This document shows, piece after piece, positions 748 to 59,853 of a stretch of DNA of 64,000 bases; the first letter of the stretch is position 1; each line of letters opens with the position of its first letter. The position numbers and the translations under genes are program-made. Below the pieces are notes generated by a model. It saw nothing but the letters and a program-made list of their open reading frames with translations. It was not told where the DNA came from and searched no databases. This DNA is from Austropuccinia psidii (Eukaryota > Basidiomycota > Pucciniomycetes > Pucciniales > Sphaerophragmiaceae). The stretch spans positions 1,614,999 to 1,678,998 of the forward strand of contig JALGQZ010000015.1 in the NCBI GenBank assembly GCA_023105745.1, in the 5' to 3' direction.

Positions 748-1816
748 TGGAAGAAAATTATATCCCACTTGAAACCCAGTCACAGGCCAACACACCAGTG
801 ACACCCTCAGAACCAGAGGGCAGCAAGGGCAAAGGAAGGAGGCACAGTGAAGGCCTGATTACAGCAAAGAAGTGGACACCAATAGCCACCTAGAGGTGTA
901 GAAAACCACAAAGCTCTGCATCAATACAAGGTAAACCAACCTTAACAACTTGTACAGGGAAGATTACCATAATTAACCCAGTTGTAACCTCTAAAGGTAA
1001 ATTGCCCAAATCAACAGACAACAAATTTGTACAAGGCACAGTAAAAGGTAAATACCCTAAGAATATAAAGTTTTTGACTGCTTGTAAACACTGATATGTC
1101 ACCTGTATACCTCAGAGACCTTGGCTTCCAAAGGAACCAGACAGAGGACAGAGAAGGCTTGTCTAGAACCAGAAGACCTGGAAGAGGACACCTTGGACAC
1201 AGTGGTGGATGGAAAAACAATGAGGGAGATAATATCAACCCTACCATTCACACTCCAATACAACAGGAACCTCAAACCAGAGAACTGGAAGGATATGGAT
1301 CAAGTTCTTCAGCTCCACCAACTCCTCAAAGATTTGTTTCAATGGTGCATGGACAACAAGAGGTTCAACCTGGCAAGTCACTGGGCAGAACTTGGAGCAA
1401 GTTGCCAGAAGATCTGTCTCAAAGAGATAGACTTCAAAGACCTGATGGTAATCACCAAAGGGTGTAATCCTACCAGGGAGTTGAGACTCCTGGAGGCAAG
1501 GGCACAGAGGATAAGGGAGAATCAAGCCACTATCCAAGCTATAGAAGAACAGTTAACCCAGACAGGGCCTACTCAGATTCCTTCAGGCTCACAAGGACCA
1601 GGCCAAATCAGCTCTCCAGTGGCTTCATACCATTCAGAAACCAACAAATCAATGACCAGGAGTCACCACTCTTCACAATTACAGGACGTTCCCAGGAGAA
1701 GAAAAGGATAAAAGGGGAAAAACAAGACCTCTTTCAGCCAAAGGCAGAGAGAGTCAGACCCCATGATCCAGAAGTTGTTGGATTTGGTGAAAGAAGTGCA
1801 CAAGAACCAGAAGTAG
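748..1816 (+). pseudogene. ORF0 (spliced accessory ORF) of element A, broken
   Basis: This is the counterpart of the intact ORF0 in copy C. Predicted exons are 748-1047 and 1116-1816, with the start codon formed by splicing to the leader. The frame is broken by a TAG near 892 and a TAA at 1709-1711. Apart from these the protein follows copy C closely: a basic, proline-rich start, an acidic stretch, a helical middle with the motif GCNP (GWNP in C), and a short lysine-rich helical end. Function is unknown. It overlaps gag-pol in the +1 frame. The exon lengths equal those of C exactly (300 and 701 nt), which supports the model. Confidence 0.6.
1048..1115 (+). other. Predicted short intron holding the gag-pol AUG, element A
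   Basis: A 68-nt intron runs from AAAG|GTAAAT to ACCTCAG, with branch-like CTGAT at 1091. The gag-pol frame ATG at 1096 lies inside it. The acceptor reads CTCAGAGACC, so a second AG two bases on is available; the first AG gives the ORF0 frame, the second the gag-pol frame. Copy C has the same 68-nt intron. Confidence 0.55.
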
Positions 1817-20690: not shown

Positions 20691-23600
20691 TTATAGACAT
20701 ATTCAGGCTTGTGGCCTTCTTTCATGTCTAAATCTTCTTAAGAGTTTATCTGAGTCAGGTATTTCTGATTCTGCCATCCATTCATCTTCATGTACTGGAT
20801 TTCTATATCTGACAAGATATTCTCTTTGATTTTTACCCCAAGTCTCCTTTCTTTAATGACTTTCTTTATCTTTCTGTCTTCATTCTGTTCCACAGGTGGT
20901 ACAGTTAAAGGAGTTGGGTTTCTTAAAAGAAACAATTCTTTATCAGCTGGTTGATAAGGTTTCATCAAGCTGACTGGAAATGTGCGGTGTTTATTTTGCA
21001 ATTCACCACTCAATTCCACTTGAACTGCATTGGTTCCATGTAAGGCAACAATAACAAAAGGTCCTACATAAGAATATTTAAGTTTCTTTGGGCCTTTGAT
21101 ATTATTAAAATTCAAGGTTGAAACTAGAACTAAGTCCTCTACTTTGAAGTCTGGTACTTTATGACTCTTGTCCCACTTCTGTTTTGCATAATCAAAATCA
21201 TCATCCATACTTTGTTTTGCATGGTGTTTTACTTTATCAAGCATTAATTTGAAGCTGGAAGCTGTAGGATGAATGTCAATCAAGTCTTTCCTCAGTGTGT
21301 CTGCTGGGAGCCTTGGATTCCATCCTTTCTCTAACATAGCAGGAGTTTTTCCTGTGGAAGAATGGACTGATGTCTTGTATGCCAATTCTAATGCAGGTAC
21401 CAGAGTGCACCAGTCATGGGTAAAGCCATCTGAGTCTTTGAGTTCTAATCCATAAGCACGAAATCTCCTGATCATGTCTTCTAAAGTTTGAATCATCCTC
21501 TCTGCTAGCCCATCTGTTTGAGGGTGATATGCTGTAGAGAATGATAACTTAGTCCCAAACAATCTATGAAGATTGGTCCAAAGTGCAGATGTGAACTTGG
21601 GGTCTCTGTCACTTATGATATTCTTAAATAACCCTGTATGAGAAATAACTCTACTCCATAAAAGAAGAGCTGTATCCATAGCAGTGTCATCTTTATGACA
21701 TGGTAAGAATATGGGAGTTTTGCTATATCTGTCTAAAATGACTAAACAAGCATTATAACTTTTGTCACCACTTGGAGGAAGTGCTGTGACCCAATCCATG
21801 TGAACAACATCCCAAGGGGATTTTGGTTCTTGAATATGGATCATCAATCCAAATTTCTTGCCTGTACTCCTGTTTGCTTTTTGGCATCTATCACAGGTAT
21901 GGCAATACTCAATGGTTTCTTTTCTCCAAGATGGCCACCATGCACAGTTCTTCACCTTTTCAAGTGTTCTGTCTTCTGATAGGTGTCCAGATTAAATGCC
22001 ATCATGGCATTCATGAAGAATGGTATTGATGAGCAATCTACTACACAGTGTCATCACACAAGAATGTTTTGTTCTATGGTAAATAATCCCATCAAACAAG
22101 TGAAATCTTCCTTCAGAATAGGAATTTTTCCAAACTTCATCTAGTGCATTAATCAAAGATGTGTCTTTGCAGTCTTTATCCAATAAAGAAGTCAAGATAT
22201 GGCAATGCTTGTCTTGTTTATAAGACTCTCTGACCTCTTCAAAGAATTCAGTCCCAATATCAGTTATGTTAATTCCTTCAATTGGAATCTGTGGTTCAGC
22301 TTCCAAAGGTACATAAGCTGGGTTATCAGGAGTGTTGGCTAAAGCCCATCTACTAAGTCCATCAGCATTTTTGTGAATGTTTCCTGCTTTATGAACTATA
22401 GTAATGTTTCCTCTATATTCTTGAATGGCTATTTGCCATCTCAACATATGTCTGTTGGGAGCTTTCATGTTAAGAAGTGATTTCACGGCATTACAGTCAG
22501 TTATCACTTCAAAAACACTGCCATCAAGGTAATAGTGTAATTTCTCAAGTGCCCATACCAAACATAAGCACTCCATTTGGCTTGCACCATATCTGGCTTC
22601 TGTTGGTTTGATTTGTCTTGAGATATAACAAACTGGTCCTTCTGTAGGTTTGTCATCAATAATTTGGACTTGGTGTAGGGCTGCCCCTAATCCATCTCCA
22701 CATGCATCAATGTACAATTTAAAAGGAATATTCCAGTCAGGCATGAGGAGTAAAGGTGCTTCTGTAAGGGCTTTCTTTATCTTCTCATAAGCTTTAATTC
22801 TTTCCTGTGTCATCTCAAATACAGTCTGTTGATCACAGATTTAATAGAGTGACTTGGCTAGAATTGCAAAATCTTTCAAGTGTTGCCTATAGTAACTAGC
22901 AAATCCAAGAAAAGACATCATTTCTTTTTTATTCTGGGGTATTGGCTTAAGTAACACTGCTGCTACTTTATTCTTGTCAATACCCAAGCTCAAACCAGAA
23001 ACAACATGTCCCAATGCTTTGAGTTCTTCAAAACCAAAATTGCATTTCTTAAGTGAAATTTTCATGTTCACTTCTGCAACTTTATGAAGTACTTTTGCAA
23101 GTCTTTCAAGGTGCAAAGACCATGAGTCAGAACATATGATAATATCATCAATATAAATGATAAGCCATCCTTCAGACAATTCTGTGGGGAAGATGGTATT
23201 CATCATTCTTTGATAATGAGATGAAGCATTTTTAATGCCAAATGGCATTCTAAGATACTCAAAAATACCACAGTGAGTGATAATTCTAAGTAATTTCCTA
23301 GCTTTAGGCGTCAAAACATTTTGATGGAAGCCTTTTAATGCATCCATTGATGTTATATACTTGGCTTTAGACAATTGAGTCAAGGTTTCTTGGATTCTAG
23401 GGATTGGATACCTATCTGGAACTGTGTAGGTATTCAAACCTCTAAAATCTCCAACCATTCTTGACTTATCATTATGCCATGCAATAATAACAGGTGTTGT
23501 CACTTCAACTTCCTCATTATGGCCTACTTTCCTTAGCACACCAAGTTGGATCAACTCTTGGATATGTTTTTCCAAGGCCTCTCTAGCTCTGGGACTGGCT

Positions 23601-26404
23601 GGATAAGCTGGTCTTCTAAGTACTGGAGGATATGGTCTATCAATATTAAGAGTAATATCAATTTCATGTCCCCTTATAGCGCCTAATGGTTCATTATCAG
23701 ATACAAATGCATTATTGTATGTATATAATACATCAATAAGTTCATTCGTCATCTTTGGTGACAATGATGGATTAATTTGTGCTTCAACAAGTTGTTTAGA
23801 CACAAATTCATCTTTGTAAGTATCTTTGACAGAAGATACTACAGATATCTGTTTTGGCATATTGGAGAAAGCAAATTTTTGCCTTTTGTTATCTCCAATT
23901 GTGAAATATCTGTCCTTATGGTTATTTATATCAATACCATAAATATTTAAGTAATCATTTCCAAGAATGATGTGCTGAGATGTGCAATTATCCATTACTA
24001 CAATCTCAGTTTTCCTTCTTACACTTCCTGCTGGATGTGGGAATAAAATATTAGTGTCCAATATGCCCAAGGGGTACATATTGTTACTGGCACTACTGAA
24101 TTGTACACCTTCTATTGGTAATAGATGGTGTTTCCATTCAGGAAGTATAATTTGGAGATAATCTTTGCCAACACAAGTGCAAAATGCCCCTGTATCCAAA
24201 TTTACTTTGGCTTCAATATCACTCATCAGAACTGATGTGATACAGGATGCTCCAGCAGTATAACCCTTTCCTCTAGCAGGTTTTGTTTTACATATTCTGG
24301 CATCTTGGATATTGATCAGGTTGCAGCAATCTTCACTGTACTGTGGCAAGTGGGTATGGACTTCTGTGACCTCAAAGAAAGCTGAAATATTTTCAATGGG
24401 ATAGTCCTCCACTGGTGTATCTTCAGAGACTGCAGAATCTTGATCAGACTCTTCTTTCTCTTCAGTACACTGAATTTCTTCAATGATTTGAAATTCATTG
24501 ATCTTTGTCTTCTTAGGGCAAGTGTTGGCTAAATGTGAAGTACTTCCACATTTATGACACTTCAAGACAGGTCTTTCTGGTCTTCTTTCCTCTCTAGGAA
24601 TCTTTGAGACTATTTTGGACTCTATTGGGTTTTTAATCCAAGTCTTACCAATTCTTGTCCTGGTAATGATATCTTCCATAGCATTAATGTAGTCCCCTGT
24701 TGAACAGGGTTCCACACATCTGCTTTTGATAGCATGTTCCAGTTCTCCTCCACACTTTCTTAATATTTTCATATTAATCATAGTGTCAGACATATCTGGG
24801 TGTAAAGCAGATAATCTGTCTTTTTTTTTGAAGAACCAAGTAAGTGGTTTGTCTTTTTCTGAGTTAAAAATGGCACTTTCAAAAGCATTCTCCATTTTAA
24901 ACCTCCAAGAATTATTGGCCCATTTGGTAATCACTTCAGATTTCCACCAAGACCAGTCATGTTTACCATGATCAATCCTCATTTTGTAATACCATTTATT
25001 TGCAGTTCTGGTAAACAAACAGTGTAATTTTCCCACTATGATTTCATCAGGTATATTAAAGTCTTCTTGCAACATATCAATAGTCCTGATGAATTCAATA
25101 TGGTTGTATTCTCCTTCACCAGAGAATGTTGGCCATTCTTCTACTTTGGGAATATCTCTTGCAGAGTAGGCATTTTCTCCTAAGAATGGAGTCAAACTTT
25201 CTTTGACAGAAAGTTTTTCTTCAGTCAAAGGTGTAGAATGTCTTGGCATATGTGGTTCATGATTCTTATGAATTTGCTCCACACTTGCAATCATATCATT
25301 CTTCAATTTCTGCCTCTCACTGTCACTTTTTGCTAAATGTATAGAAAATTGATTGGTGTTCTTAACTATTTTTAAGACATGGTCTTCAAGAGATTTAAGT
25401 CTATCATTTACTTTAAAAATGGAAGGATCCTCTGTGTCATTATTTTGACATTGTTTCTCAATTCTTTCACAAGTATTGCTAATTGACTCAAGGGTGACAG
25501 TTGTCAATTGATGCCAATCAGAATGTTGCTTGTCATTTTTCTTTAAATCATTGATGTCTAATGTAATTTGCTTCAACTTTGACTCAAGTTTGCCAATTTC
25601 TACACTAATACTTCTATGTACATCATTTATTTGCGTGGAAAAGTCCTGTTCATTCTTTCCTGCTCCTTGACTGTGAATTCCATAAGAGTTCTGGCCATAT
25701 TGAAGACACTGTCCACGGCTGAAGGCTCCAATTTGGGGATCCTGTACCCTTGTGGGTAAGGTCTGTGCCAATTTGCTTTGCCTTTGCCCTTGCCTTGATG
25801 GTTCTTGGGACCTCTCTGTTTCTTTTGAGGTCCTTTGGGCTTGTCCTTGGATGCTTCTGGAGCTGGTTTGGAGCTGGTAGATGCCACTGGTGGCTCTGTC
25901 TCCAAAGCTGGAGTCATTTCCAACTCTTTCTTCTGGTCTATGGATAAAAGACTTTGGTTCTTCAACCAATTCTTTATCTTTTTGACCTTGTCTTTGCAAG
26001 ACAGGGGGCTCCAACCTCCTAAGAGTTCTATGGTCTTCTCCTGACCCAGAAAGCTCTTGATGTGTAAGTAAGAGTTCATGGCCCCCTGCCAAAGGCTTGG
26101 GCAGATTTCCCACTCCTCTTCCTTGGCTGCTCTGAACCAGTTTTTGTACTGGCATTGATATATTTCTATTGCTGCCACCTGAAAGTGGTTCAGCCCTGGA
26201 AATATTACCATAAATCAGTTCAGGTTCAGAATTCACGTCAAAATCTGTTGGTACAGACCTTGGGGAATGGGGGGCAACTCTGGCATCCTCCAGATGTGTC
26301 TTTCTTGTGGAAGATTTGGCACTTCTGGATTTGGTCTTGCCTCTTCCTTGTCCACATCCATCTGGTTGGACTGAATAGTTGCTTCCATTTCTGGTATGCA
26401 CCAT
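20691..26404 (-). pseudogene. Gag-Pol polyprotein of element B1, nearly intact
   Basis: One frame runs from ATG at 26404 through the whole polyprotein, broken only by a TAA in RNase H near 22841, a TAA at about 21992 and a 1-base loss near 20836 that replaces the chromodomain end (frame then stops at 20738). Domains by residue: low-complexity basic N-terminus (1-260), coiled coil (260-400), Gag core EWPTFSGEGEYNH (about 420), zinc knuckle CHKCGSTSHLANTC (about 615), protease NLDTGAFC (about 735), RT with YIDDII (about 1085), RNase H (about 1190-1340), integrase with CHTCDRC, MDWVTALP, ISDRDPKF and GLAERMIQ. All catalytic motifs are kept. The ATG lies within a predicted intron of ORF0. The first 260 residues overlap ORF0 in another frame. 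Confidence 0.93.
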
Positions 26405-26614
26405 TTTCACGTCAATTTAAAGATAAAAGGTGAAAATATAAGATAAAATACACACCTTTTGGTGGTAATTTAGCTTTTTCTGAGTTGAATAAGGTGCCTC
26501 TTTTAGCAATCTGCACCTCAATACTGTCTTCAGATTCTGCTACTGAAGATTCAGGACTATTGATGTATCTTTTACTGAGTCTGTTACCAGCTGCACAGTA
26601 TTTGATTAAAGACA
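25627..26614 (-). CDS. ORF0, spliced accessory protein of element B1 (predicted, 286 aa)
   Basis: Predicted exons on the minus strand are 26614-26456, 26390-26259 and 26195-25627; with one leader base they total 861 nt, an exact open frame of 287 codons including the stop. The start AUG would be made by joining leader A (26901) to TG (26614). The introns are 286, 65 and 63 nt, with GT..AG ends and CTGAT-like branch sites. The protein has an acidic first part, a helical middle (about residues 100-185) with GGWSP, a Lys/Pro/Gln-rich low-complexity part (KGPQKKQ, KGKGKAN) and a helical C-terminus ending FPRK. The copy C product has the same plan and alignable W..GW[NS]P blocks. It is +1 to gag-pol. 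Function unknown; the basic region suggests nucleic-acid binding. The splicing is inferred, not observed. Confidence 0.55.
26196..26258 (-). other. Predicted ORF0 intron 3 of B1 (63 nt)
   Basis: Donor CAAG|GTCTGT and acceptor TTTCCAG, with branch-like CTGAT (CTAAT in B2). It removes two in-frame stops from ORF0 and keeps phase. The same sites occur in B2. Confidence 0.5.
26391..26455 (-). other. Predicted ORF0 intron 2 of B1, contains gag-pol AUG
   Basis: A 65-nt GT..AG intron (donor AAAG|GTGTGT, acceptor GCATACCAG). The gag-pol ATG at 26404 is 11 nt before its 3' end, the same arrangement as in family A/C. Confidence 0.5.
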
Positions 26615-26900
26615 CTTAAAGAGAAAAAAATATGATAAAAGAAATTATTTTTGTGTTTTAAGATTTTTTAAAAGATTTTTTATAAATTTTATTATTTTTT
26701 AATATTAAAAAAATTATTCTTTTTAAAGAAAAAAATTAAAATTTAAGATTTTGAATGAAAATTAATTCAGAGTAACTCAAAGAATAATTTTATAAGTTTT
26801 TGGATGTGAAAAAGCCACGTGTAAAACAGTATAAAATTAAACCAAATTCCTCAATGAAAAAGATTTCCAAAACAATTTCAAAAATAAGAATTATTTTTAC
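26615..26900 (-). other. Predicted leader intron of B1 (286 nt)
   Basis: Donor TTTTAAA|GTAAAA, acceptor TTTTTCTCTTTAAG after a pyrimidine run. Joining gives A|TG, an AUG start for ORF0. In B2 the donor GT has become GA. Confidence 0.5.
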
Positions 26901-26982
26901 TTTAAAATGAAAGAAAAAAATATTCAATTAATATATTTTAGAGCTTAAAAATATATTAATTAAGGGTACAAGGTTCAAAAAA

Positions 26983-26998
26983 CATGGCCAGGCCCCCA
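26983..26998 (-). promoter_or_regulatory. Primer-binding-site-like motif of B1
   Basis: TGGGGGCCTGGCCATG on the minus strand, 2 nt from the 5' LTR; identical to the motif of element A although the LTRs belong to different families. Confidence 0.6.
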
Positions 26999-27000
26999 AA

Positions 27001-28905
27001 TGTAAGAAGTGACTATGAAACTGATGATAATATTACTATTAATCAACAGTACTATGTCTGTTCTTATGAAATATAATAATAAACAATTATTATAACCACA
27101 ATTAAATAATTATAAAATTATTTCTTGCACGTGTTATACACTACTAGTGATTATAACAGTGAGCAGTAATTGTCTACTAGAATCAATTACAAGAAGAATT
27201 TAATAATAAAAACTTCTTTATTAAAATAATAAAATTATCTTTTACAAGAATAATTATAAAGATAATTCTTGAAGAAAACTATTACTAGAGAAAAACTTTA
27301 AGATTTAAGAATAAATGACTCACTAATACTCCAAAGAACTTATTGATAGATAAGAGTAGAGAAATTTGACGTGGAATTGTGGATTTAAGGGATGAAAAAG
27401 ATTTATAACAGTATTACAACAATATATAGTTGGATTCTATGATTTCACGTCTTTCTGGATGATTTTGAAAGATTTAAAACACTTAAGAATAGCTTTAACC
27501 AATATTTACTTGTTGGTAATAATGATTTAATAAATTGATAAGATGATGATGTGGAAAAAACAGCAAGAAGAGGCTTCTTTTAAGTCAACAACAGCTCACA
27601 GAGGCGTGCCATGGAGCAAACTGAAAAACCAGTGAGTGAGAAAACAATAAACCTTTTTGGATTGATGATTGCATCATCTGTTGTCACGTAAGATTATCAT
27701 AATTACTTAATTGATGCTTTTACGTGACTACCAACCCCAATATGGTTAAGAATAAAAGGAGTAACAACAGTAAATCTTCTTTTATTCTAAAATAATCATT
27801 GATTTCTCAAAGTTATCAATGTTATTGCCAATTTCATCACAGGTTTTAATTACTGTGAATTTTTGAAGATTCAGTGTTTCACGTAGAATGGTCAAAAATG
27901 GACTGTAAGTAAAACTTTTAATTTTACTAGTAAAACTGTAATTATTTTTGGTTGTACCATAGATAATACAGTTTTCCATTGGTCCTGAAAGTTTCAGAAA
28001 GATTCATTAAGAATTGTTTTTTTAATGAATTTTTGAAGTTTTTACCTCATTTCTACGTAGAATTGCAAATAGCAGTATTTTGCTGGTTGCTATGAGGTAA
28101 ATCAATGAATATGGATCCCAAAAGGGTTTAATTACTCTTTTAAGGTCTAGTCATGGAAAGTCATCAAGAATTGACGTGGTTACAGGAGCCTAAGTAGCTT
28201 ATTACCTCCTTGGCACGTCAAAATAGCAGGTTATTTGCTATTTTTCTTATGATTACAGTAAGTGTAACTTGGTAACCAAGTTCCCAAAGAGTTTTAGTTT
28301 ACCAATTGGGCCAAGATGAGCCATGGATCCATGCTCTGAAGCTATCCACGCCTCTGAGGCCTCAGAAGTTGGGTACCCTGGCTCTCTTTGATGTCTTTTG
28401 TCCCCCTTGCTTATTTTTTACGTCAAAATAGTAATTTAAGCTTAAAGTGAGATATCCACTATGGGTGTACCAAAAGTCCATGTAAGAATACCATGATATT
28501 AAGTGCTCAAAACATGCATAACACTATTCTTAGTGTATATATAACATGGGATTTCTCACTTTTCCATTATTTTGGCTAAAAATCAAGAAAAACAAAAATT
28601 TTCACGGATCTTTTATGTGGTATTAATGATGTGGTATTGAAGTATTTTCCATTTTACCACCTCAAATACTTAAATTGAGCTTATTCACTCTATGGAGCTA
28701 CCCTAGGTGAATTTTTGTGTAGAATCCAAATCTGGTCTTAAATCCATGGATTTAATTACTCAATAAAAGGTTATTCATCTTTTCTGAAATTGAAAATGAT
28801 GAATTTTGGATATATGCATAACTTATGAGTTTTGCATAATTCAAAATTTCTTTTTAAGATAATTGTGGCCTATTTGGGTATGTAAAATATACCTCAAGGC
28901 TCACA
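27001..28905 (-). repeat. 5' LTR of element B1 (1905 bp)
   Basis: Nearly identical to 18642-20562 apart from a 16-bp deletion in an AT-rich part near 27236. TSD base run ATTTT follows directly at 28906. Confidence 0.95.
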
Positions 28906-31154: not shown

Positions 31155-31159
31155 AAGAC

Positions 31160-33256: not shown

Positions 33257-33439
33257 TAGTGGTGTGGTATTCCATACCATTTTTTATCAGGCTCAAGCTC
33301 ATAGTACCCTATAACAGCAGTAAATACAGCCTACAGGCAGACTTACACTCCAATTTTACACCAAAGGGTCAATTCTACAGCAAGAAGCTGGATTTAACTC
33401 ATAAAACCATTGCACAGGCACCAAAGGGCAATGTATGTG
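33257..33439 (+). other. Orphan segment between LTR fragment and element C
   Basis: A frame of about 60 codons is open here. Across the C insertion (ATGTG duplication) it would continue for one codon to a TAA at 43139-43141, followed at once by AATAAA. That would suit a gene end with a polyA signal, possibly the 3' end of the MULE-OTU gene, but I find no OTU His motif and do not recognise the protein. Confidence 0.3.
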
Positions 33440-34876
33440 TGTCAGGATGAGTCTATGTTGAAGTGGTAATAAAGCTATTTACAACTAAAACTATGACTGT
33501 GACACGTGGAAAATAGTTAAAAATGCTTTTATAAGGGTTAAAGATGGATTAATTTAATAATAAAAGGGCTTTACTGTAAGGAATATAGTGGTGGTGAGCG
33601 CTTTTGAAAGCCCTGGGTGCAGCTTTACCTGTTGGGTTACAATAATAAAGACTACAATACTTTAAATTAAGAGTATACCTGATTATTACCCAAGATTAAA
33701 ACTGTTTTTGACAGTTTACTATGTAGGATATTCAAGAGCAGGATGAGGAGACAATTCTGGCTGTGAAAAGCCTCCTTTTTATCCTGAAATGGGGTGGAAA
33801 GGGTCCTAGACCTTTCCACATAGAGGAAGTGAAGTTTTTTCACCCTCCAGGACTGGCTTGTGGTTTGCAAACAGCCTGTATGCCCTGTATTGGGCTCAGA
33901 TGTGGCTTTGAAGCCACATCTGGGCAGTTTTCACCAATACAAGGTGAAAATTTTCATCTGGGGACCTCACAGCTTGATTCTGATGTGTATGATGCGTAGA
34001 ATGCTGTACAGAAACTATATGGGAACCCAGTATTGACTGACTTATGAGGTATTGAAGTATTAACATGCTTCTTTGTCTGCTTTGACTCCTCATAATCAGA
34101 GTACAACTGTATCCTGTCATAATACAGCTGTATTGGTCATATTGTGGGATTATAACCTTCAAATGGCCATAACTCTGTCAGTTTTTGAGATATCATGCTC
34201 AGGGTTGGTTCATTAGATAGCCCTGTATGGGCTCTACACAATGATGCCCAATTTGGTATGGTTATCATTCAATATGACAAAGTTATCCCATGTACAAGGA
34301 TTTTGTACATAGGCGTGGTTTGGGCAAAAAGCTGTATTGAGCTTGTTTGCCTCATAACTTCTGTTATAGGTGAGATATGAAGAAGTGGATGGCACCATCA
34401 GATAGCCCTTATTGTGCTCTTTCCAAAAAGACCCCACTTCAAGTATCCCCCACCAAAACTGTAGAAGTTAGATGGGAGGTGAATGTTTTGTTCACCCTTA
34501 TTTGGCCTGAATTTGACCATAACTCAAGTAATACTGGTGCTAGCTACGTTTGACTGGTACAATTGGATATCCCTGACTTAGAGCTTCATTTTGAATACCA
34601 ATTTGATGGGTTTAAGCCTCTTTTTCTATATTTACATGAGAGGTGAAAATTAAGGTTTATGGTCAGCTATAGCTTTGAGCAGGAATAACTTTGTTATTTA
34701 TTGTCCTATGGTGATGGGACTTATGTTTTCAGAAAGAGGTGAGTTTCCTCTTTCTTTTGATACCTTTTGAGCTGATTTGGCTCAGCTCTATGTTTTGGTG
34801 GTATCTTGGCTATACCATTGGTTTATGGTATTTTGGCTGTCATGCTTGTGCTCTGGTTTTGAGTCACAGGCTGACA
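33440..34876 (-). repeat. 3' LTR of element C
   Basis: It runs from TGTCAGGATGAG to CAGGCTGACA and is followed by the purine-tract complement TACCCTCCCTCT. Confidence 0.95.
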
Positions 34877-34900: not shown

Positions 34901-37900
34901 TCATTGATGAGACTGTTCAGTCCTCCTAGAGGCCCTGGATCTCCTTAGATGAAGGTTCCCATCTGGTATGGCATCCTCTGCCAACCATTTGTCTTTATCA
35001 GCTGTCTTGTGCTTGAATCTGACTAAGTATTGTCTTTGATCCTTCCCATTAAGTCTGATCTTTCTGGCCCTGATGATTTTACTCACAGGTCCTGGGGAGT
35101 CCTCCACTTCCACTATATCAGGTGGTGTGGGGTTCTTTTTCCTGAAGGGGAATTTGTCCTCCTCTGTTTGGAAGTATGGCTTGACTAAACGTACCTGGAA
35201 GACTGGGTGCTTTCTGGAAAACTCCTCTGTAAGTTTGACTTCCATTGCATTCTTTCCTATCAACCTAATGATAGTGAAAGGCCCTAAAAATGAGTCCCTC
35301 ATCTTCTTGGGTCCTTTAAGGTTATTAAAGTTCAGTGTAGACACTAGCACTTGGTCCCCTTCCTTAAAGTCAGGTTCCATGTGTGTCTTGTCCCACCTCT
35401 GCTTCTTATATTCTTTTGCCTCAGCTATGCATTTGGCAGCTGTGTCACAAGCCTTTTTCCACATATCATGGAAGTCTTTGGCTGTGGGGTGGATGGTTAG
35501 AAGATTCTTCTTCAAGTGATGTACAGGCAACAGGGGATTCCACCCTTTCTCTACCACTGCAGGTATTGTTCCTGTTGTAGAGTGCTGACTTGTATTATAA
35601 GCCAGCTGGACAGCTGGTAGAAGGGTAACCCAGTCAGGGGTGTATTCCTCATGGTTCTTGTATTCCATGCCATAGGCACAGAACCTTCTAAGGATGTCTT
35701 CCATAGTCTGGATCATCCTCTCAGCTAGGCCATCTGTTTTGGGATGGTAAGCTGTGGAAAAAGCAAGCTTGGTGCCAAGCATGTCATACAAGTTGGTCCG
35801 AAATTCTGATGTCAATTTTGGGTCCCTATTGCTAATGATGATTTTAGGGACTCCACAGGTAGATATGATGTTATTCCAAAATAACAGGGCAGTATCCATG
35901 GCTGTGTCCTCCTTGTGGCATGGTAGAAAACTCATGCTCTTGCTGAACCTATCAACCATGATTAGGAAGGCATTGTAGTTTTCTTTGCCTCCTGGGACAA
36001 GTCCTGTGACCCAGTCCATGTTGATGGTTTCCCATGGGTGCTTGGGTTCCTCTATGTGCTGAAGTAACCCATACTTCTTACCATGTTTCCTGTTTTCCTT
36101 TTGGCATCTTTCACAGGTGTTGATGTATTCACTCAACTCCTGTTCCCACTTGGGCCACCAAGCTGTGCTTGCTACCCTCTCTTTGGTCCTGTCTTCACTC
36201 ATGTGTCCCATATAGGGGCAGTCATGGCATTCCTGCAGGATCAATGAGATGTGGTCTCTGCCTACCATTGTGAGTGCACTTGTGTGATTTTTTCTGTGGT
36301 AGAGCAGGCCATCTAGAAGGAAAAACTTGTTATCCTCATAGGCCCTCAACCAGGGTTCTTCCAGCTGGGATTCCAGTTCTGGACTCCTGTACTTTTGTTG
36401 AAGGAGTTGTAGTAATATGCCACACTGTTTGTGCTTGGCATAAGACTTGAGTACTGCACTGAAAAATTCATTGTGTAGTTCTGAGAAACTTATTCCGAGT
36501 ATGAGAGTTTCTGTTCCTTATGAATCAGTGTTCCCACTGTCAAGGGTGCCACTTTCTGGGGGGCATTCAGAAAATCTGAAGTTCTTCTTCCTATCTACTT
36601 CCATGAAATGGATAGGAATCTTGGCTGCAACTTCAGGGTCATAAGCTGGATTGCTTTTGACATTGTCCAGTGGCCATCTGCTAAGGCCATCTGCATTGGT
36701 ATGACTTTTACCTTCTTTGTATATGATGGTCATGTTCCCTCTATACTCCTGAATGGCTATTTGCCATCTAAGCATGTGTCTATTTGTAGTCTTCATGTTC
36801 AGTAAAGACTTCAAGGCTGTGCAGTCTGTGTAGAATTCAAAGACTGCACCCTCCAGATAATAATGGAGTTTTTCTAGAGCCCAGACTAGACATAGACATT
36901 CAGTCTGGGTGGCTCCATACCTGGCTTTTGAATCTTTCAGCCGCTTTGAGATATAGCAAATCACTCCTTCTCTTGTTTCACCATCCACAATTTGTCTTTG
37001 GTGAAGGGCTGCTCCTAGGCCTTGACTGCATGCTGCATCTATATATAACTTGAATGGTAGTTCAAAGTCAGGTAAGATGAGCACAGGTGCATTAGTGAGT
37101 TCATATTTGATCCTCTCATATGCATCCCTCCTTTCCTTGGTTATTTCAAAAACTACATCTTTTGAACATAACTTGTATAAACTACTAGTTATGTGTGCAA
37201 AGTTTTCAATATGGTTTCTATAGTAGCTAGCAAACCCAAGGAAAGATTGCATCTCTTTGATGCTCTTTGGTACTGGCTTTCGCAGTACTGCTTCTACTTT
37301 ATTCTGGTCAATTGCCAGACTAAGACCTGAGACTTTATGTCCTAGAGCCAGTAACTCTTGTTGGCCAAAATTGCATTTTTTAAGTGAAATTTTGAGATTC
37401 ATGGGTGTGCATTTACTTAGTACTCTGTCTTTGTATTGCACATGGTCCTCCCATGTCTCTGAGTATATAATGATATCATTAATATATACTACCATCCAGC
37501 ATTCCAATATTTCATCTTGAAATATTGTGTCCATCATCCTTTGGAAGTGGGCTGGTGCATTCTTGATGCCAAATGGCATTCTGGTATACTCATATATGCC
37601 CATATGGCATATTATTCTGAGTAATTTCATGGAGTTTGTTTTAACTCCATTCTGGTGGAAACCTTTCATACAATCCATTTTGGTTATGTATTTGGCTTTA
37701 GCCAGTTTATCCAAGGCATGAGCTATCCTGGGTATAGGGTACCTGTCTGCTTTTGTGTAGTTATTCAGAGCTCTGAAATCTCCACACAGTCTAGACTTGC
37801 CATCATTCCAGCTGATTAGGACAGGGGTGGCTATTTCCAATATTTCATTATGTCCAATCTTCCTGATGACATCCATATCCAGCAGTTCATTGATATGTTT

Positions 37901-40754
37901 CTCAATTTCTTTCCTGGTTGTCAGGCTTGCTGGATAAGGAGGTCTCCTAAGAATGGGTGGATAAGGCCTTTCGACATCCAGATATAGCTCTATATCATGG
38001 CCTTTGATCTTGCCTAATGGTTCTTCACCAATGGCAAATGCTGGTCTGTTCTTTCTCAGCATCTTCAATAAACTTAGTTTTTGTTTGCTGGTGAGGGTAG
38101 TGCCAAACCGTCCCTCTCTGAATTCCTTCAGAAGTTCTTTTGGTGGGTCTTGAGAAAATATCTGGTATATATCAAGTGAAAATTTCTTTTCCTTGTTAGT
38201 ACCAATGGTGATGTGCCTATTTTTACTGTTTTGAATGTCTATGCCATACATCCTCTGGTAATCTGTTCCCAGTAAAAACCCTTGGATGTGGGCATCATCA
38301 AGCACTACAAACTCTGGGTTGAGTCTGATATTACCCTTCCTGTGGGGTATAAGTATCTCTTTGATAATTGTCCCAATGGAAGTCATCTTTCCTGATGCAC
38401 TTTTAAAGCTCTTTGCCTTAGTGGGAAAGAGCTGTTTTTCCCAGTTTGGGAAGTGGTTATACAGATAGCTTCTGGCCACTATGGAGCAGTGTGCTCCACT
38501 ATCAATGATCAGTGGGTGCTGAGCATTGTCAATACAAACAGTCAATTTTGTGGCTGTCCCATGTATATATGCCATTCCTTTGGTTTTTGTAACCAGGAAT
38601 GTTTGTGCATCTTGTGTATGTTTTCACAAGTTCTTGCCAGAAGTGTCCTGTGGCATGCCTGCTTCCAACTGTATGTCCTGGATTTCTAGTGGGGTTTCCT
38701 CTTGGTATTCCACTAGGAATTCCTCTCTTGGGTCTTGATAATCATCAGATGGTTCTCTGATGGCATCAACCATGGAATCTGATTCAGAATCCTCTGTTGG
38801 AGGTTCTTCCTCAGGGACTTTCTCTATGGCATAGACTTTTTTATTTCCCTTTGGACAGTTGTTGGCATAGTGGTCTGTTGAACCACAATTTTGACAAGAA
38901 TTCCTCTTCCTTGCCACTTCTGCCACCCTTTCTTTGGGTTTGTCTTTAAACTCTACCCTGAATGGTTGTTTCTTGTTGAAACTAATGCTCTTATATGGGG
39001 TGAATTTCCCTATATTAGTCCTTTTCCTTATGTCTTGTAAGGTGTTAGCAATGTCATCTAGAGTGCAATTTTGGTTTCATCTGCATTTTACTGCATGCTC
39101 TAGTTCTCCTGGCAATTGTGTCAGAAGTTTGTGATTCCTCATTTGGATGTTCATCTGAGGATCAATGGCTTTAAGTCTTTTAGACTGTCTAAGACACCAC
39201 TCATATGGATCTTTGTCCACAGAGTATTTGTCATTTTCAAATGACATGGTTGTTTGCCATATCCAAGTACCATTAATGTACTTTTGGATGATTTGACTCT
39301 TCCACCATGACCAGTTTCTTCTGCCATGGATTTCTTTCTTTCTGTGTACCATATACTAGCATGACCTTTAAATGCAGTATTCAATCTAGCAGTGATCCAG
39401 TAGTCTGGTATGCTTGGTACATCAATGAAGAGTCCATCAATATAATCTATGAGTTCCATATGATCATATTCTCCTGATCCAGAGAATTTGGGCCAACTTG
39501 AGGCCTCAGGAAGCTGTTTCAAGGATTTCCTCTCTAAATAAGACATGCCATCTCCATCCTGGTATTGTGATGGGGATCTTGCCTTATTCATCAACATGGA
39601 ATCTGGCTTGATGTCATCTGGTTGATATGGAATATCCATAACTTGGCCTTGTGGTTGGGGCTTCAAGCTATGGTAGGAATTAAACAACTTGTTAATGTCT
39701 TTATCCAGACACTCCCTGACCCTTGTGCTGTGGTGTTGTTCTTCAAAGACTATATTCAGTCTTTTGTTGGTTTCCTCAGAGGCTTTGCTCAGTTGAGCAT
39801 ATCCTTCTTGAAGATTTTTAACTATCTGTTCCAAGGAGGCTTGAGTTTGTCTCATCCTCTCTTGGCCAGATTTAATTTCTGCAAACTGCTTTGCAGATTG
39901 TTCAGCATATTTGGACATTTGTAACCACAGTGTATCACTGTTGATGTTACTCTCAGATGTGACAATGTTATTTTCAGTCTGAGTGGGGGTAATGTTCTAT
40001 TACTAGGACTACTGATTCTAGAGTGGTTTACAATTACTTCTGGTTCTTGTATACTTCTTTTACCAAATCTAACAGCTTCTGGATCATGGGGTCTGACTCT
40101 TTCCTCCTCTGGTTGAAGGAGGTTTTGTTCTTGCCCTTGTTTCCTTGTCTTCTCCTGGAAACCTCCTGGAATTGTGAAGAATGGTGACTCTTGGCCACTG
40201 ATCTGCTGGTTTCTGAATTGTGTGAAGCCACTGGAGAGCCGATTTGGCCTGCTCCTTGTGAGCCTGAAGGAAGCTGATTAGGCCCTGTCTGGGTTAACTG
40301 TTCTTCTATAGCTTGGATAGTGGCTTGATTCTCCCTTATCCTCTGTGCCCTTGCCTCCAGCAGTCTGAACTGCCTGGTAGGATTCCAACCTTTGGTGATT
40401 ACCATCAGGTCTTTGAAGTCTATATCTTTGAGACAGATCTTCTGGCAACTTGCTCCAAGTTCTTCCCAGTGACTTGCCAGGTTGAACCTCTTGTTGTCCA
40501 TGCTCCATTGAAATAAGTCTTTGAGGAGTTGGTGGAGCTGAAGAACTTGATCCATATCCTTCCAGTCCTCTGGTTTGAGGTTCCTGTTGAATTGGAGTGT
40601 GAATGGCAAGGTTGATATTATCTCCCTCATTGTTTTGCCATCCACCACTGTGTCCAAGGTGTCTTCTTCCAGGTCTTCTGGTTCTGGACAAGCTTTCTCT
40701 GTCCTCTGGTTGGTTCCTTTGGAAGCCAAGGTCTCTGAGGTATGCAGGGGACAT
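34901..40754 (-). pseudogene. Gag-Pol polyprotein of element C
   Basis: From ATG at 40754 (inside a predicted intron) the frame covers a low-complexity extension, Gag coiled coil (39918 on), Gag core, zinc knuckle CQNCGSTDHYANNC (about 38900), protease LIIDSGAHC (about 38500), RT (about 37900-37250), RNase H, integrase and a chromodomain-like tail ending near 34901. From 39076 onward a single frame is kept, with a TGA at 38624 and a TAA at 36518. Upstream lesions are a TAC-to-TAA stop near 40278, 1-base losses near 39998 and 39345, and the TGA at 39077-39079 shared with copy A. The RT box reads YINDII instead of YIDDII, and the integrase second Asp motif reads ISNRDP instead of ISDRDP, so both enzymes should be inactive. 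Confidence 0.92.
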
Positions 40755-41102
40755 ATCAGTGTTTGCAAGAAGTCAAAAACTTTATGTTCTTAGGGTATTT
40801 ACCTTTGACTGTGCCTTGTACAAATTTGCTATCCGCTGATTTGGGCAGTTTGCCTTTGGAGGTTACAACTGGGTTAATAGTTGTAATTTTCCCTGTACAA
40901 GTGGTTAAGGTTGGTTTACCTTGTATTGAAGCAGAGTTTTGTGGTTTTCTACTCCTCTGAGTGTCTATTGGTGTCCACATTTTGGCTGTAATGAGGCCTT
41001 CACTAAGCCTTTTTCCTTTGCCCTTGCTGCCCTCTGGTTCTGGGGGTGTCACTGGTGTGTTGGCCTGTGACTGGGTCTCAAGTGGTATGAAATTTTCCTC
41101 CA
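40034..41102 (-). CDS. ORF0, spliced accessory protein of element C (predicted, 333 aa)
   Basis: Predicted exons on the minus strand are 41102-40803 and 40734-40034. With the leader base A they total 1002 nt, an exact open frame of 334 codons including the stop, beginning MEEN and ending YKNQK. Residues 1-100 are rich in Pro, Ser and Lys. Residues about 110-125 are acidic (EPEDLEEDTLD). The middle is helical with SHWEELG and GWNP, then a Ser/Gln-rich part, a basic RRRQGNKGK patch and a helical end. B1 ORF0 has the same order of parts. It is +1 to gag-pol over 700 nt. I recognise no known domain. A capsid-like, RNA-binding or silencing-countering role would all be guesses. Splicing is inferred from conserved sites. 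Confidence 0.58.
40735..40802 (-). other. Predicted 68-nt intron of C with gag-pol AUG and tandem acceptor
   Basis: Donor AAAG|GTAAAT, branch-like CTGAT, acceptor CTCAG|AG|ACC. The gag-pol ATG (40754) is inside. The first AG joins the leader exon to ORF0 (KETLASK), the second to gag-pol (KDLGFQR). Sites are the same in A. Confidence 0.55.
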
Positions 41103-41649
41103 CTGAATCAAACAGGAAAAAGAGGGCTTATGTCAGTTAAGACTTCTTAAAAGGCTGGTTTTGCACGTCTAAGAATGGCCTCCGGGATTGTATATTATTA
41201 CAATATGCCCTTGTATTATGACAGTGTAATTTAATCAACAATTACACTTCAAAAAATACAGCTTACTGATATGTGGTATACTGTTTGTATACCAATATCT
41301 TACAGAATACTTGTAATTAGCAAGTATAATCTGTCTAAGATGGTGTATTGCAGGGCAATTGAGTTAACAATGTGCCCAAACACGCCTCAACTGTTGGTTT
41401 ATCAGTATGAGCTGTCTTGATTCAATTAAGAATTAAGACTGTATTAGTGGCTTAACAGTGTTTTTTTATACAAAACACGCCAAAAATACTGGTCTTGTGG
41501 TTATCAGCCACGTGACAGATACTCTTTAAGATATGAGTATTTTTTAAAAAACAAATAAAAATATATAAAAATATATTTCTTTTAGAGAAAATGACACCTA
41601 AAAAGATCAAACAAGTGTCAATAAAATGATAAAAAAGAGAACAACTTAC
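41103..41649 (-). other. Predicted leader intron of C (547 nt)
   Basis: Donor TTAAAA|GTAAGT just downstream of the PBS-like motif, CTGAC branch-like site and TGATTCAG acceptor. Splicing joins A to TG to form AUG in the context AAAAUGG. Same signals as 205-747 in A. Confidence 0.55.
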
Positions 41650-41677
41650 TTTTAATAAGTCCAAAAAGGTTTCAAAA

Positions 41678-41693
41678 CACGGCCAGGCCCCCA
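41678..41693 (-). promoter_or_regulatory. Primer-binding-site-like motif of C
   Basis: TGGGGGCCTGGCCGTG on the minus strand, separated from the 5' LTR by three bases. Confidence 0.6.
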
Positions 41694-41696
41694 AAA

Positions 41697-43133
41697 TGTC
41701 AGGATGAGTCTATGTTGAAGTGATAATAAAGCTATTTACAGCTAAATCTATGACTGTGACACGTGGAAAATAGTTAAAAATGCTTTTATAAGGGTTAAAG
41801 ATGGATTAATTTAATAATAAAAGGGCTTTACTGTAAGGAATATAGCGGTGGTGAGCGCTGTTGAAAGCCCTGGGTGCAGCTTTACCTGTTGGGTTACAAT
41901 AATAAAGACTACAATACTTTAAATTAAGAGTATAACTGATTATTACCCAAGATTAAAACTGTTTTTGACAGTTTACTACATAGGGTATTCAAGAGCAGGA
42001 TGAGGAGACAATTCTGGCTGTGAAAAGCCTCCTTTTTATCCTGAAATGGGGTGGAAAGGGTCCTAGACCTTTCCACATAGAGGAAGTGAAGTTTTTTCAC
42101 CCTCCAGGATTGGCTTGTGGTTTGAAAACAGCCTGTATGACCTGTATTGGGCTCAGATGTGGCTTTGAAACCACATCTGGGCAGTTTTCACCAATACAGG
42201 GTGAATATTTTCATCTGGGGACCTCACAGCTTGATTCTGACGTGTATGACGCGTAGAATGCTGTACAGAAACTGTATGGGACCCCAGTATTGACTGACTT
42301 ATAAGGTATTTAAGTATTAACATGCTTCTTTGTCTGTTTGACACCTCATAATCAGAGTACAACTGTATCCTGTCATAATACAGCTGTATTGGTCATATTG
42401 TGGGATTATAACCTTCAAATGGCCATAACTCTGTGTGTTTTTGAGATATCATGCTCAACGTTGGTTCATTAGATAGCCCTGTATGGGCTCTACACAATTA
42501 TACCCAATTTGGTATGGTTATCATTCAATATGAGAAAGGTATCCCATGTACAAGGTTTTTGTACATAGGCGTGGTTTGGGCAAAAAGCTGTATTGAGCTT
42601 GTTTGCCTCATACCTTTTGTTATAGGTGAGATATGAAGAAGTGGATGGCACCATAAGATAGCCCTGATTGTTTTCTTTCCAAAAAGACCCCACTTCAAGT
42701 ATCCCACACTAAAACTGTAGAAGTTAGATGAGAGGTGAATTGTTTGTTCACCCTTATTTGGCCTGAATTTGACCATAACTCCAGTAATATTGGTGCTAGC
42801 TCAGTTTGGCTGGTACCATTGGATAGCCCTGACTTAGAGCTTCATTTTGAATACCCATTTGATGAGGTTAAGCCTCTCCTTCTAAACTTTAGATGAGAGG
42901 TGAAAATTAAGGTTTATGCTCAGCTATAGCTTTGAGCAGGAATAACTTTGTTATTTCTTGTCCTATGGTGATGGGACTTATGTTTTCAGAAAGAGGTGAG
43001 TTTCCTCTTTCATTTGATACCTTTTGAGCTGATTTGGCTCAGCTCCATGTTTTGGTGGTATCTTGGCTATACCATTGGTTTAAGGTATTTTGGCTGTCAT
43101 GCTTGTGCCCTGGTTTTGAGTCACAGGCTGACA
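41697..43133 (-). repeat. 5' LTR of element C
   Basis: Same length (1437 bp) and ends as 33440-34876, with scattered substitutions; followed by the second ATGTG copy. Confidence 0.95.
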
Positions 43134-56500: not shown

Positions 56501-59257
56501 TAATATCAACTTCATGTCCTCTTATAGCACCTAATGGTTCATTATCAGAGGCAAATGCAGTATTGTATGTGTATAACACATCAATAAGTTCATTCTTCAT
56601 TTGTGGTGACAATGATGGATTAATTTGTGCTTCAACAAGTTGTTTGGACACAAATTCTTCTTTATAAGTATCTTTCTCAGAAGATACTACTGATATTTTC
56701 TTTGGCATATTGGAGAAGGCAAATTTCTGTCTTTTGTTATCCCCAATTGTGAAATATCTGTCTTTATGGTTATTGATGTCAATACCATAAATACTTAGGT
56801 AATCATTTCCAAGAATGATATGTTGAGATGTGCAGTTGTCCATTACTACAACCTCAGCTTTCATTCTTATACTTCCTGTTGGATGGGGAAATACAAGAGT
56901 AGTGTCTAGTATACCCAAAGGGTACATATTGGTACTGGCACTACTAAATTGTACACCTTCTATTGGAAATAGATGGTTCTTCCATTCAGGAAGTATAGCT
57001 TGGAGATAATCTTTGCCTACACAAGTGCAAAATGCTCCTGTATCCAAATTGACTTTGGCTTCATCATTATTCATCAGAATTGATGTGATACAAGATGCTC
57101 CAGCAGTATAACCTTTTCCTTTAGCAGGTTTGGTTTTACACATTCTGGCATCCTGAACATTAATAAGGTTGTAGCAATCTTCACTATACTGTGGCAAGTG
57201 GGTATGGACTTCAGTGACTTCAAAGAAAGCTGTGATGTTTTCAATGGGATAGTCCTCCACTGGTGTATCTTCAGAGATTTCAGAATCTTGATAAGATTCT
57301 TCCTTCTCTTCAGTACACTGAACTTCTTCAATGACTTGAACTTCATTGATTTTTGTCTTTTTTGTTCAAGTGTTGGCTAAATGTGAAGTGCTTCCACATT
57401 TATGACACTTTAAGACAGGTTTTTATGGTCTTTTATCCTCCCTGGGAATCTTGGAGGTCATCGTGGATTCTGCTGGGATTTTAGACAAAGTTTTACCAAT
57501 TCTTGTTCTGGCAATGATATCTTCCATAGCATTAATGTAGTCTTCTGTTGAACAGGGTTCTACACATCTGCTTTTGATAGCATGTTCTAATTCTCCTCCA
57601 CACTTTCTTAATATTTTCATATTAACATAGTGTCAGACATATCTGGTTGTAAAGCAGATAATCTGTCTTTTTGTTTGAAGAACGAAGTAAGTGGTTTATC
57701 TTTCTCTGAGTTAAAAATGGCACTCTCAAAGGAATTTTCTATCTTAAACGTCCAAGCATTGTTGGCCCATTTGGTGATCACTTCAGATTTCCACCAAGAC
57801 CAATCATGTTTACCATGATCAATCCTCATTTTGTAATACCATTTCTTTGCAGTTCTGGTAAACAGACAATGTAATTTTCCCACTATGATTTCATCAGGTA
57901 TATTAAAGTCTTCTTGCAGCATATCAATAGTCCTGATGAATTCAATATGGTTGTATTCTCCTTCACCAGAGAATGTTGGCCATTCTTCTATTTTGGGAAT
58001 ATCTCTTGCAGAGTAGGCATTTTCTCCCAAGAATGGGGTGAGACTTTCTTTAACAGAACATTTCTCTTCAGTTAAAGGTGTAGAATGTCTTGGCATATGT
58101 GGTTCATCATTCTTATGAATTTGTTCCACACTTGCAATTATTTCATTCTTCAACTTCTGCCTTTCACTGTCACTTTTTGCTAAGTGTATAGCAATTTGAT
58201 TGGTATTCTCAACTATCTTCAAGACATGGTCTTGCAGAGTCTTAATTTAATCATTCATTTTAAAAATGGAAAGATCTTCCATCTCCTCATGCTGAACTTG
58301 GCACATGTTTTCAATTCTTATGCAACAATTGGTAATTGAGTCAAGTTTGGCATTTGTCACTTGGTGCAATTCAATGTATTTCTTGTCATTTTTCTTTAAT
58401 TCAACTATATCTGATGCAATTTTAGTTAACTTGCCATCAAGTTTACCAATTTCTACATTAATACTAGTCTGTACACCAATTATTTCCATGGAAAGTTTCT
58501 GTTCATCCTTTCCTGCTCTTTGGCTGTGAATTCCATAAGAGTCCTGGCCATATTGAAGACACTGTCCACGGCTGAAGGCTCCAATTTGGGGATCCTGTAC
58601 CGTTGTGGGTAAGGTCTGTGCCAATTGGCTTTGCCTTTTCCTTTTCCTTGATGGTTCTTGGGACCTTTCTGCTTCTTCTGAGGTCCCTTGGGCTTGTCCT
58701 TGGACACTTCTGGAGCTGGTTTGGAGCTGGTGGACGCCACTGGTGCCTCTGTCTCCAAAGCTGGAGTCATTTCCAACTCTTTCTTCTGGTCTATGGATAA
58801 AAGACTTTGGTTCTTCAACCAATTCTTTATCTTTTTGACCTTGTCTTTGCAAGACAGGGGGCTCCAACCTCCTAAGAGTTCTATGGTCTTCTCCTGACCC
58901 AGAAAGCTCTTGATGTGTAAGTAGGAGTTCATGGCCCCCTGCCAAAGGCTTGGGCAGATTTCCCACTCCTCCTCTTTGGCCGCTCTGAATCAATTCTTGT
59001 ACTGGCATTGATATATTTCTATTGCTGCCACTTGAAAATGGTTTAGCCCTGGAAATAATATCATGAATTAGTTCAGGCTCAGAATTCACGTCAAAATCTG
59101 TTGGTACAGACCTTGGGGAATGGGGGGAAACTCTGGCATCCTCCAGATGTGTCTTTCTTGTGGAAGATTTGGCACTTCTGGATTTGGTCTTGCCTCTTCC
59201 TTGTCCACATCCATCTGGTTGGACTGAATAGTTGCTTCCATTTCTGGTATGCACCAT
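53541..59257 (-). pseudogene. Gag-Pol polyprotein of element B2, multiply disrupted
   Basis: It is collinear with B1 from MVHTRNG at 59257 to the chromodomain-like end LLRRFRHERR near 53560. The end is intact here, unlike in B1. RT YIDDII (about 56000), RNase H and integrase motifs ([24 protein letters not shown]) are kept. Lesions include TAA near 58247, a 1-base loss near 57618, TAA near 57423, TGA near 57364, a 1-base loss near 56161, TAA near 55903 and 55096, and a 2-base loss near 54184. Most of the zinc knuckle remains readable. Confidence 0.93.
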
Positions 59258-59837: not shown

Positions 59838-59853
59838 CACGGCCAGGCCCCCA
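59838..59853 (-). promoter_or_regulatory. Primer-binding-site-like motif of B2
   Basis: TGGGGGCCTGGCCGTG on the minus strand, 2 nt from the 5' LTR; same as in C. Confidence 0.6.

Follow-up and report, generated by a model that had tools for sequence, protein, structure and literature searches.

The 64,000-nucleotide (nt) window analysed here (Austropuccinia psidii, GenBank assembly GCA_023105745.1, contig JALGQZ010000015.1, positions 1,614,999 to 1,678,998 of the forward strand; coordinates below count from its first letter) contains four retrotransposons, A, B1, C and B2, that bear an additional open reading frame (ORF), ORF0, whose predicted exons partly overlap the N-terminal region of gag-pol in another frame. 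Comparison of genomic copies shows that ORF0 is a real coding sequence with a predicted exon structure and conserved splice signals, and makes it likely that these Ty3/gypsy elements derive two alternative products from a single 5′ region, with splicing choosing between them. In our view, short of RNA there is no stronger evidence to be had than the map of constrained frames presented below, and the case is carried by the agreement of two element families, A/C and B, together with unbiased sampling. Element A lies on the plus strand with its 5′ end cut by the window edge, and the other three lie on the minus strand. Assignment to Ty3/gypsy follows from the domain order of B1 and C, where reverse transcriptase (RT), RNase H and integrase come after gag, and from the long terminal repeat (LTR) pairs found for B1, B2 and C, each with a primer-binding site (PBS) beside the 5′ LTR.

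The PBS pattern has 3,779 exact matches in the genome searched (1.015 Gb, 84 contigs), and its reversed control has none. The first 20 listed match places, chosen regardless of ORF0, comprise 19 B-type copies (77-99.9% pairwise identity over the ORF0 stretch) and one A/C-type copy (L096); ORF0 is present in all 20 and, given the number of matches, is therefore probably carried by thousands of copies. The C-family copies, by comparison, are 20 of 150 listed matches picked by similarity to the last ORF0 exon, a bias that only exon 2 escapes, and a first set of B copies (20 of 150 listed matches) was picked likewise. Three degenerate copies (L063, L064 and L068) were left out of the C-family sets used for variants, wobble positions and the ratio of nonsynonymous to synonymous differences (pN/pS); the last comprised 19 sequences and 154 pairs, 17 of 171 pairs being left out as more than 97.5% alike. 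A further B comparison of pN/pS omitted L029 and used L050 for exons 2-3 only. Permutation P-values throughout assume independent sites, although the copies share history.

In the B family, exon 2 is constrained in the ORF0 frame (pN/pS 0.24, 95% codon bootstrap 0.13-0.39, vs. 1.93 and 1.73 in the other frames; 19 PBS-picked copies, as for the B values that follow), and L050, which matched the B gag-pol N-terminus and holds a B-like 5′ piece with exons 2-3, gives 0.31 in the same frame. Over exon 4, amino-acid constraint is likewise seen for ORF0 only (0.23, 0.18-0.32) and not for gag-pol (1.35, 0.98-1.99) or the third frame (1.68), so that the frame-specific constraint anticipated by the first-pass annotation was indeed found across copies. 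Beyond the ORF0 stop the assignment changes and gag-pol becomes the constrained frame (0.51, 0.38-0.68, vs. 0.97 and 1.08), as it also appears in intron 3, which codes only in gag-pol (0.49). Variation is lowest in exon 3, with pN/pS of 0.62, 0.93 and 0.92 across frames and none clearly dominant. Wobble positions give a concordant picture: exon 2 varies in its own phase, exon 4 in the ORF0 phase and the stretch after the ORF0 stop in that of gag-pol (each 0/5000 permutations), and introns 1 and 2 have no codon phase. The two B copies of the window agree: the last ORF0 exon differs at 33 sites between B1 and B2, of which 26 are third positions of ORF0 codons, and 25 of the differences leave the ORF0 protein unchanged (random 9.3±2.5) vs. 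five for gag-pol (random 10.0±2.5).

The A/C family repeats this pattern. Ahead of the gag-pol AUG, in exon 2, 21 of the 33 differences between A and C are synonymous in ORF0 (null 9.3±2.5); in exon 3 just 20 of 52 are (13.1±3.1, P 0.02). Across the 19 C-family sequences pN/pS is 0.22 in exon 2 (other frames 2.49 and 1.04) and, with copies picked by this very exon, 0.37 for ORF0 vs. 1.27 for gag-pol in exon 3, while the A/C-type copy found without an ORF0 reference, about 19% different, yields 0.31 and 0.44. Exons 2 and 3 again show their wobble phases (0/5000 each) and introns 1 and 2 show none. Within ORF0, synonymous sites diverge less in the overlap (0.084) than they do in exon 2 (0.185), which is what restraint by a second frame would produce. 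Because exons 2 and 3 stand in different DNA phases in both families, an intron is needed between them, and the 65- and 68-nt GT..AG introns would supply the shift.

The proposed junctions are conserved to match. For C, those of the first-pass annotation (41650/GTAAGT, CAG/TG at 41102 and a 68-nt intron at 40802-40735; a slash marks the splice boundary) hold as claimed and give its exact 334-codon frame, i.e. 1+300+698 nt or 333 codons plus stop. The first donor reads A/GTRRGT in 17 of 20 C-family copies, the other three lacking an alignable donor, the acceptor CAG/TG and the intron-2 AG are each kept in 19 of 20, and L096 has the first donor AAAA/GTGAGT. In the PBS-picked B copies the acceptor AG/TG is present in 18 of 19, intron 2 has GT and AG in 19/19 each, and intron 3 has GT in 18/19 and AG in 19/19. 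For B1 the exact 287-codon frame (1+159+132+566 nt, 286 codons plus stop) and the introns 26455-26391 and 26258-26196 stand, but the first donor previously placed at 26900 is not conserved and we reject it: among 18 copies with the site visible it reads GTCAAA in 13 and GTTAAA in four and is lost in one (L009, which is B1 itself, L010, the same place as L011, and L013 and L029, where the site is not visible, were left out), and in the PBS-picked sample GT is found in 13/19 and G at +5 in 0/19, with B2 reading GA. The B2 copy (window 57853-59855) has no GT at the equivalent of this donor or at intron 2, and its gag-pol is open over ORF0.

A better candidate for the B first donor lies within the LTR, where ACCAACAA/GTAAGT (window 27509), about 70 nt 3′ of the TATA-like CTTAAAAGA, is conserved in 19 of 20 copies and in seven of the eight LTR stretches examined in the window and at fetched loci. 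The exception is B1's own 5′ LTR, which reads GTAAAT; since GTAAGT stands in its 3′ LTR and in most copies, the B1 donor has probably changed since insertion. This donor also ends in A, so the junction AUG would still be formed, here as ACCAACA-A/TG-TC with the AUG in favourable context, and the revised intron 1 would take out the PBS. A second conserved LTR donor, TATTA/GTGAGT (window 27323), occurs in every LTR aligned there, likewise ends in A and is a possible alternative to 27509.

The overlap of ORF0 with gag-pol is, as judged from its stop codons, dual-coding. When the ORF0 protein and codon usage were held fixed and synonymous codons shuffled, gag-pol stops in B exon 4 numbered 0 in all four copies vs. 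7.0-8.4 expected (P 0.0002 or less), and in C exon 3 one in C and 0 in four other copies vs. 8.7-8.8 expected (0 of 5000-20000 shuffles); the third frame had stop numbers as expected, and B exon 3 taken alone was uninformative (0.5 stops expected, P 0.50). The gag-pol frame is thus open far beyond what ORF0 predicts, and its openness is no by-product of ORF0. Both frames are open over the overlap in seven of the 19 B copies. Many copies with ORF0 stops beside an intact gag-pol, the pattern named earlier as contrary to ORF0, did not appear: ORF0 is broken in two of nine copies with an open gag-pol overlap (L099 has an exon 3 stop and L109 an exon 2 one base short), and the gag-pol overlap is broken in five of 14 copies with an open ORF0 exon 4. 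In the window itself, C has its own gag-pol frame broken in the overlap (an in-frame stop, and a frameshift relative to A), and A carries one ORF0 stop in exon 2 and one in exon 3. The proposal that ORF0 is the older frame and gag-pol was overprinted receives indirect support insofar as ORF0 is the constrained frame and the gag-pol N-terminus is looser yet open, which fits overprinting. Within exon 4, 60 nt at window 26100-26041 have low variation in all three phases among the 19 B copies and could be an RNA element or a site of stronger dual coding.

The arrangement of start codons suggests how splicing might choose between the products. The gag-pol AUG falls within ORF0 intron 2 in both families (also in A, ATG at 1096), and is kept in 18/19 B and 18/20 C-family copies, with the C frame open for 263 codons in 13/20. 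B leaders are depleted of upstream AUGs, with 0 ATG in R-U5 of the three LTRs counted (6.3-6.7 expected) and, in 14 of the 19 copies, 0-1 between PBS and gag-pol ATG, where 6.2-7.6 would be expected. In the C family all 14 countable leaders of the 20 fetched copies have 0-5 ATG vs. 10.6-14.3 expected, C itself having one; its RNA 5′ end is a guess from sequence alone, with a candidate TATA-like GATAAAAAGG near 42040. The gag-pol AUG is thus often, though not always, the first AUG of the leader. B1 exon 2 lacks an in-frame AUG, so that an ORF0 including it needs an upstream one, which the junction would supply; in C exon 2 there is an in-frame ATG at 40980 that is absent from A. Altogether the junction AUG is supported as a consistent ORF0 start in both families.

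We accordingly propose the following sequence of events, in which splicing itself, the transcription start, scanning and initiation of ORF0 at the junction AUG are all inferred. Unspliced genomic RNA would carry an AUG-depleted leader of about 1.1-1.3 kb, along which a ribosome that scans from the cap would pass few other AUGs or none before the gag-pol AUG, and Gag-Pol would then be translated across ORF0 in the gag-pol frame. Intron removal would discard the gag-pol AUG with intron 2 and join the terminal A of exon 1 to the TG of exon 2, and the resulting AUG would allow ORF0 (about 286-333 amino acids) to be made instead.

The ORF0 protein itself has no Pfam match over the cut-off, no credible match among PDB sequences and, with the B protein as the only query, no relative on viral contigs. 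Single-sequence models are poor (mean predicted local distance difference test scores of 51 and 42), and at this low confidence both suggest a helical domain, a disordered linker and a C-terminal helix; the similar order of parts reported earlier for B and C reappears at this level only. The linker and C-terminus are strongly basic (isoelectric points 10.3 and 10.5). The alignable W..GW[NS]P blocks that had been described between the two proteins were not recovered: BLASTP finds no detectable similarity (E=1.7), shuffle tests give P 0.05-0.26 for the last exons and 0.35-0.54 for the core domains, and hhalign assigns a probability of 0.4%. The same layout with unrelated-looking proteins in two families suggests either ancient origin or repeated invention.

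Several observations weigh against the scheme or some part of it. Seven of the nine copies in the stop test were picked as open, the remaining two being the window copies B1 and C. Among present-day variants gag-pol stop avoidance is weak, with 11 vs. 17.6 expected in exon 4 (P 0.19, 0.086) and three vs. 3.6 in exon 3. The phase assignment is marginal for two B segments (exon 3 in ORF0 phase, P 0.076; intron 3 in gag-pol phase, P 0.060), and GTCTGT is an atypical donor for intron 3. Leaders are not uniformly clean: five B copies have two to six ATG (L095 six, L097 and L100 four each, L101 and L106 two each), A has five, several C-family copies have 2-5, the diverged L096 has 12 vs. 16.3 expected, and C R-U5 has one vs. 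3.0 expected, which is not significant (P 0.13). B exon 3 offers an in-frame ATG (26388-26386) as a possible internal ORF0 start. No processed spliced genomic copy was recognised for the B exon 1-2 junction, which gave 10 one-mismatch places vs. two for the reversed control; the five of these inspected by eye look like integrase-coding repeats unrelated to B. Finally, the lack of detectable relatedness between the B and C proteins leaves greater age of the ORF0 frame no more than plausible, and a shared origin of the two conjectural.

These points bear unequally on the alternatives. That ORF0 is a mechanical artefact of chance GT and AG signals stitched across gag-pol, with no protein behind it, gains some force from the many GT..AG choices any window offers and from the unconserved donor at 26900, yet purifying selection in the ORF0 frame of exon 2, outside gag-pol, in both B and C, and a wobble phase that switches at the predicted exon borders leave this hardly credible. 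It is also conceivable that ORF0 is translated and gag-pol reached from it by -1 frameshifting or re-initiation near its end, the open overlap frame itself being untranslated: the coordinates place gag-pol at -1 relative to ORF0 in both families, the relation known from retroviral gag/pol, and the unconserved gag-pol residues of the overlap and the weak stop avoidance speak for it too. We nonetheless consider it improbable, given the absence of stops far beyond the ORF0 prediction and the retention of a gag-pol AUG after an AUG-depleted leader. Slightly less probable still is that ORF0 begins at the internal AUG of B exon 3 through leaky scanning of a partly spliced transcript, the junction AUG being incidental; that ATG lies 16 nt past the gag-pol AUG in good context (AGAAATGG), but the preceding exon 2 shows selection in the ORF0 frame and C exon 3 has no AUG at its start.

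What ORF0 would do is less readily decided. By analogy, spliced RNA may give rise to a regulator that binds nucleic acid and helps the unspliced RNA to be exported, translated or packaged, a feedback like that of Rev or of CERV, a protein of the Caenorhabditis elegans element Cer1; we put this forward tentatively. A structural role, as an extra Gag- or nucleocapsid-like particle component, seems somewhat less likely to us, although a helical domain with a basic linker would suit either function and neither the low-confidence models nor the Pfam and PDB searches favour one: C already has a Gag with a CCHC knuckle downstream, and production from spliced RNA only is typical of retroviral regulators. 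CERV is likewise made from a spliced mRNA (PMC10309623). The full scheme of a splice-controlled start-codon switch, in which an AUG-purged leader, an intron that removes the gag-pol AUG and a junction AUG serving an older frame are combined with a Rev- or CERV-like ORF0 and an overprinted gag-pol N-terminus, is as a joint claim a speculative one that we advance with reserve.

Complex retroviruses of the Rev and Tax/Rex type make their regulators from spliced RNA and Gag-Pol from unspliced RNA, with a donor near the 5′ end. ORF0 is likened to such accessory genes by layout only, standing here in a fungal Ty3 element and overlapping the gag-pol N-terminus. Ogre-type plant elements have an extra, separate ORF before gag, and splicing is known in them; in contrast, from intron 2 onward the exons of ORF0 share their DNA with gag-pol in a different frame, and intron 2 itself holds the gag-pol AUG. 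An env-like third ORF would lie downstream of pol, where ORF0 does not. The closest comparison is CERV, which is encoded by a multi-exon spliced mRNA of a Ty3/gypsy element with one exon in a non-gag frame, is needed for export of unspliced Cer1 RNA, and coexists with unspliced RNA encoding Gag-Pol (PMC10309623). Both would be Ty3/gypsy accessory proteins in a frame other than gag, the splicing of ORF0 being predicted from conserved signals and the frame map; CERV however has a C-terminal coding exon between pol and the 3′ LTR, whereas ORF0 lies wholly at the 5′ end, splicing would make its AUG, and the export role shown for CERV is a guess for ORF0. In BARE1 and copia, splicing within the gag-pol region cuts off pol and favours Gag (PMC3735527); ORF0 resembles this in that splicing there would yield a second kind of RNA and differs in that Gag-Pol would be replaced by an unrelated frame. 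Viral overprinted genes also read one stretch in two frames (PMC8227390), and this likeness extends to ORF0 and gag-pol, of which ORF0 may be the older. ORF0 would be a spliced accessory gene of a retroelement, with a start codon made by splicing, and no description of such an arrangement in fungi was found in open-licence literature, as seen through titles and abstract openings, with subscription papers mostly outside that search.

If correct, the proposal would add a retrovirus-like layer of splice regulation to fungal Ty3 elements, and nuclear exit of intron-containing element RNA could be tested with one protein. Expansion of the A. psidii genome has been attributed largely to Gypsy elements (PMC8063080). 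The overlap further provides a well-sampled case of dual coding, with strong constraint on one frame and mainly openness in the other, and it cautions that genes of this type could be fused or missed by automatic annotation.

Table 1. Features of the ORF0-bearing elements in window coordinates; exons, introns and start codons are predicted, and a slash marks a splice boundary.
Feature	Position	Strand	Basis or remarks
C 5′ LTR	41697..43133	-	95.5% identical to 3′ LTR 33440-34876
C PBS (TTTTGGGGGCCTGGCC...) and end of ORF0 exon 1	41650..41696	-	letters, junction alignment; final base A at 41650
C ORF0 intron 1, 547 nt	41103..41649	-	GTAAGT donor, CTGAC branch-like site, CAG acceptor
C ORF0 exon 2	40803..41102	-	TG 41102-41101 would complete AUG with exon 1 A; before gag-pol AUG
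C ORF0 intron 2, 68 nt	40735..40802	-	GTAAAT..CACTGAT..CTCAG; contains gag-pol AUG
C gag-pol AUG (MSPAYLRDLG...)	40752..40754	-	inside ORF0 intron 2
C ORF0 exon 3 and stop	40034..40734	-	TAA 40036-40034; overlaps gag-pol N-terminus in other frame
C gag region 3′ of ORF0	39154..39996	-	CCHC knuckle further on, within 38627-39076
C pol (RT, RNase H, integrase), two ORF pieces	34904..38623	-	Pfam RVT_1, RT_RNaseH, Integrase_H2C2, rve (below cut-off), SH3_Tf2-1
B1 5′ LTR	27001..28905	-	97.8% identical to 3′ LTR 18642-20562
B1 ORF0 intron 1, revised	26615..27509	-	LTR donor ACCAACAA/GT at 27509, acceptor AAG/TG
B1 ORF0 exon 2	26456..26614	-	letters; ORF0-frame pN/pS
B1 ORF0 intron 2, 65 nt	26391..26455	-	contains gag-pol AUG 26404-26402 (MVHTRNG...)
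B1 ORF0 exon 3	26259..26390	-	open in both frames; in-frame ATG at 26388
B1 ORF0 intron 3, 63 nt	26196..26258	-	GTCTGT..CAG; coding only in gag-pol
B1 ORF0 exon 4 and stop	25627..26195	-	helical domain, basic linker, C-terminal helix (low-confidence model)
B1 gag-pol frame, AUG through ORF0 into RT	22841..26404	-	open; ORF reading and Pfam domains
A ORF0	748..1816	+	exon 2 748-1047, intron 2 1048-1115, exon 3 1116-1816; donor GTAAGT at 205
B2 ORF0 exon 4	58483..59049	-	one internal stop

Upstream of 20 of 150 listed RT matches (L031-L050), tblastn found no match to the last ORF0 exon of B or C. A separate abundant family among them (L034-L037 and L042), with a gag beginning MPVQHSPPAK, likewise gave no tblastn match to the last ORF0 exons. 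The C gag N-terminal region (39154-39996) has a below-cut-off PTRF_SDPR match (E 7.8e-5), which perhaps reflects coiled-coil composition. The PBS string TTTGGGGGCCTGGCC is common to both families despite their different LTRs (41696-41678 and 27000-26986), and further stretches resembling LTRs or element ends of both types lie at 29250-31156, 31980-33261, 10242-12760 and 15618-16449, one of them inverted beside B1.

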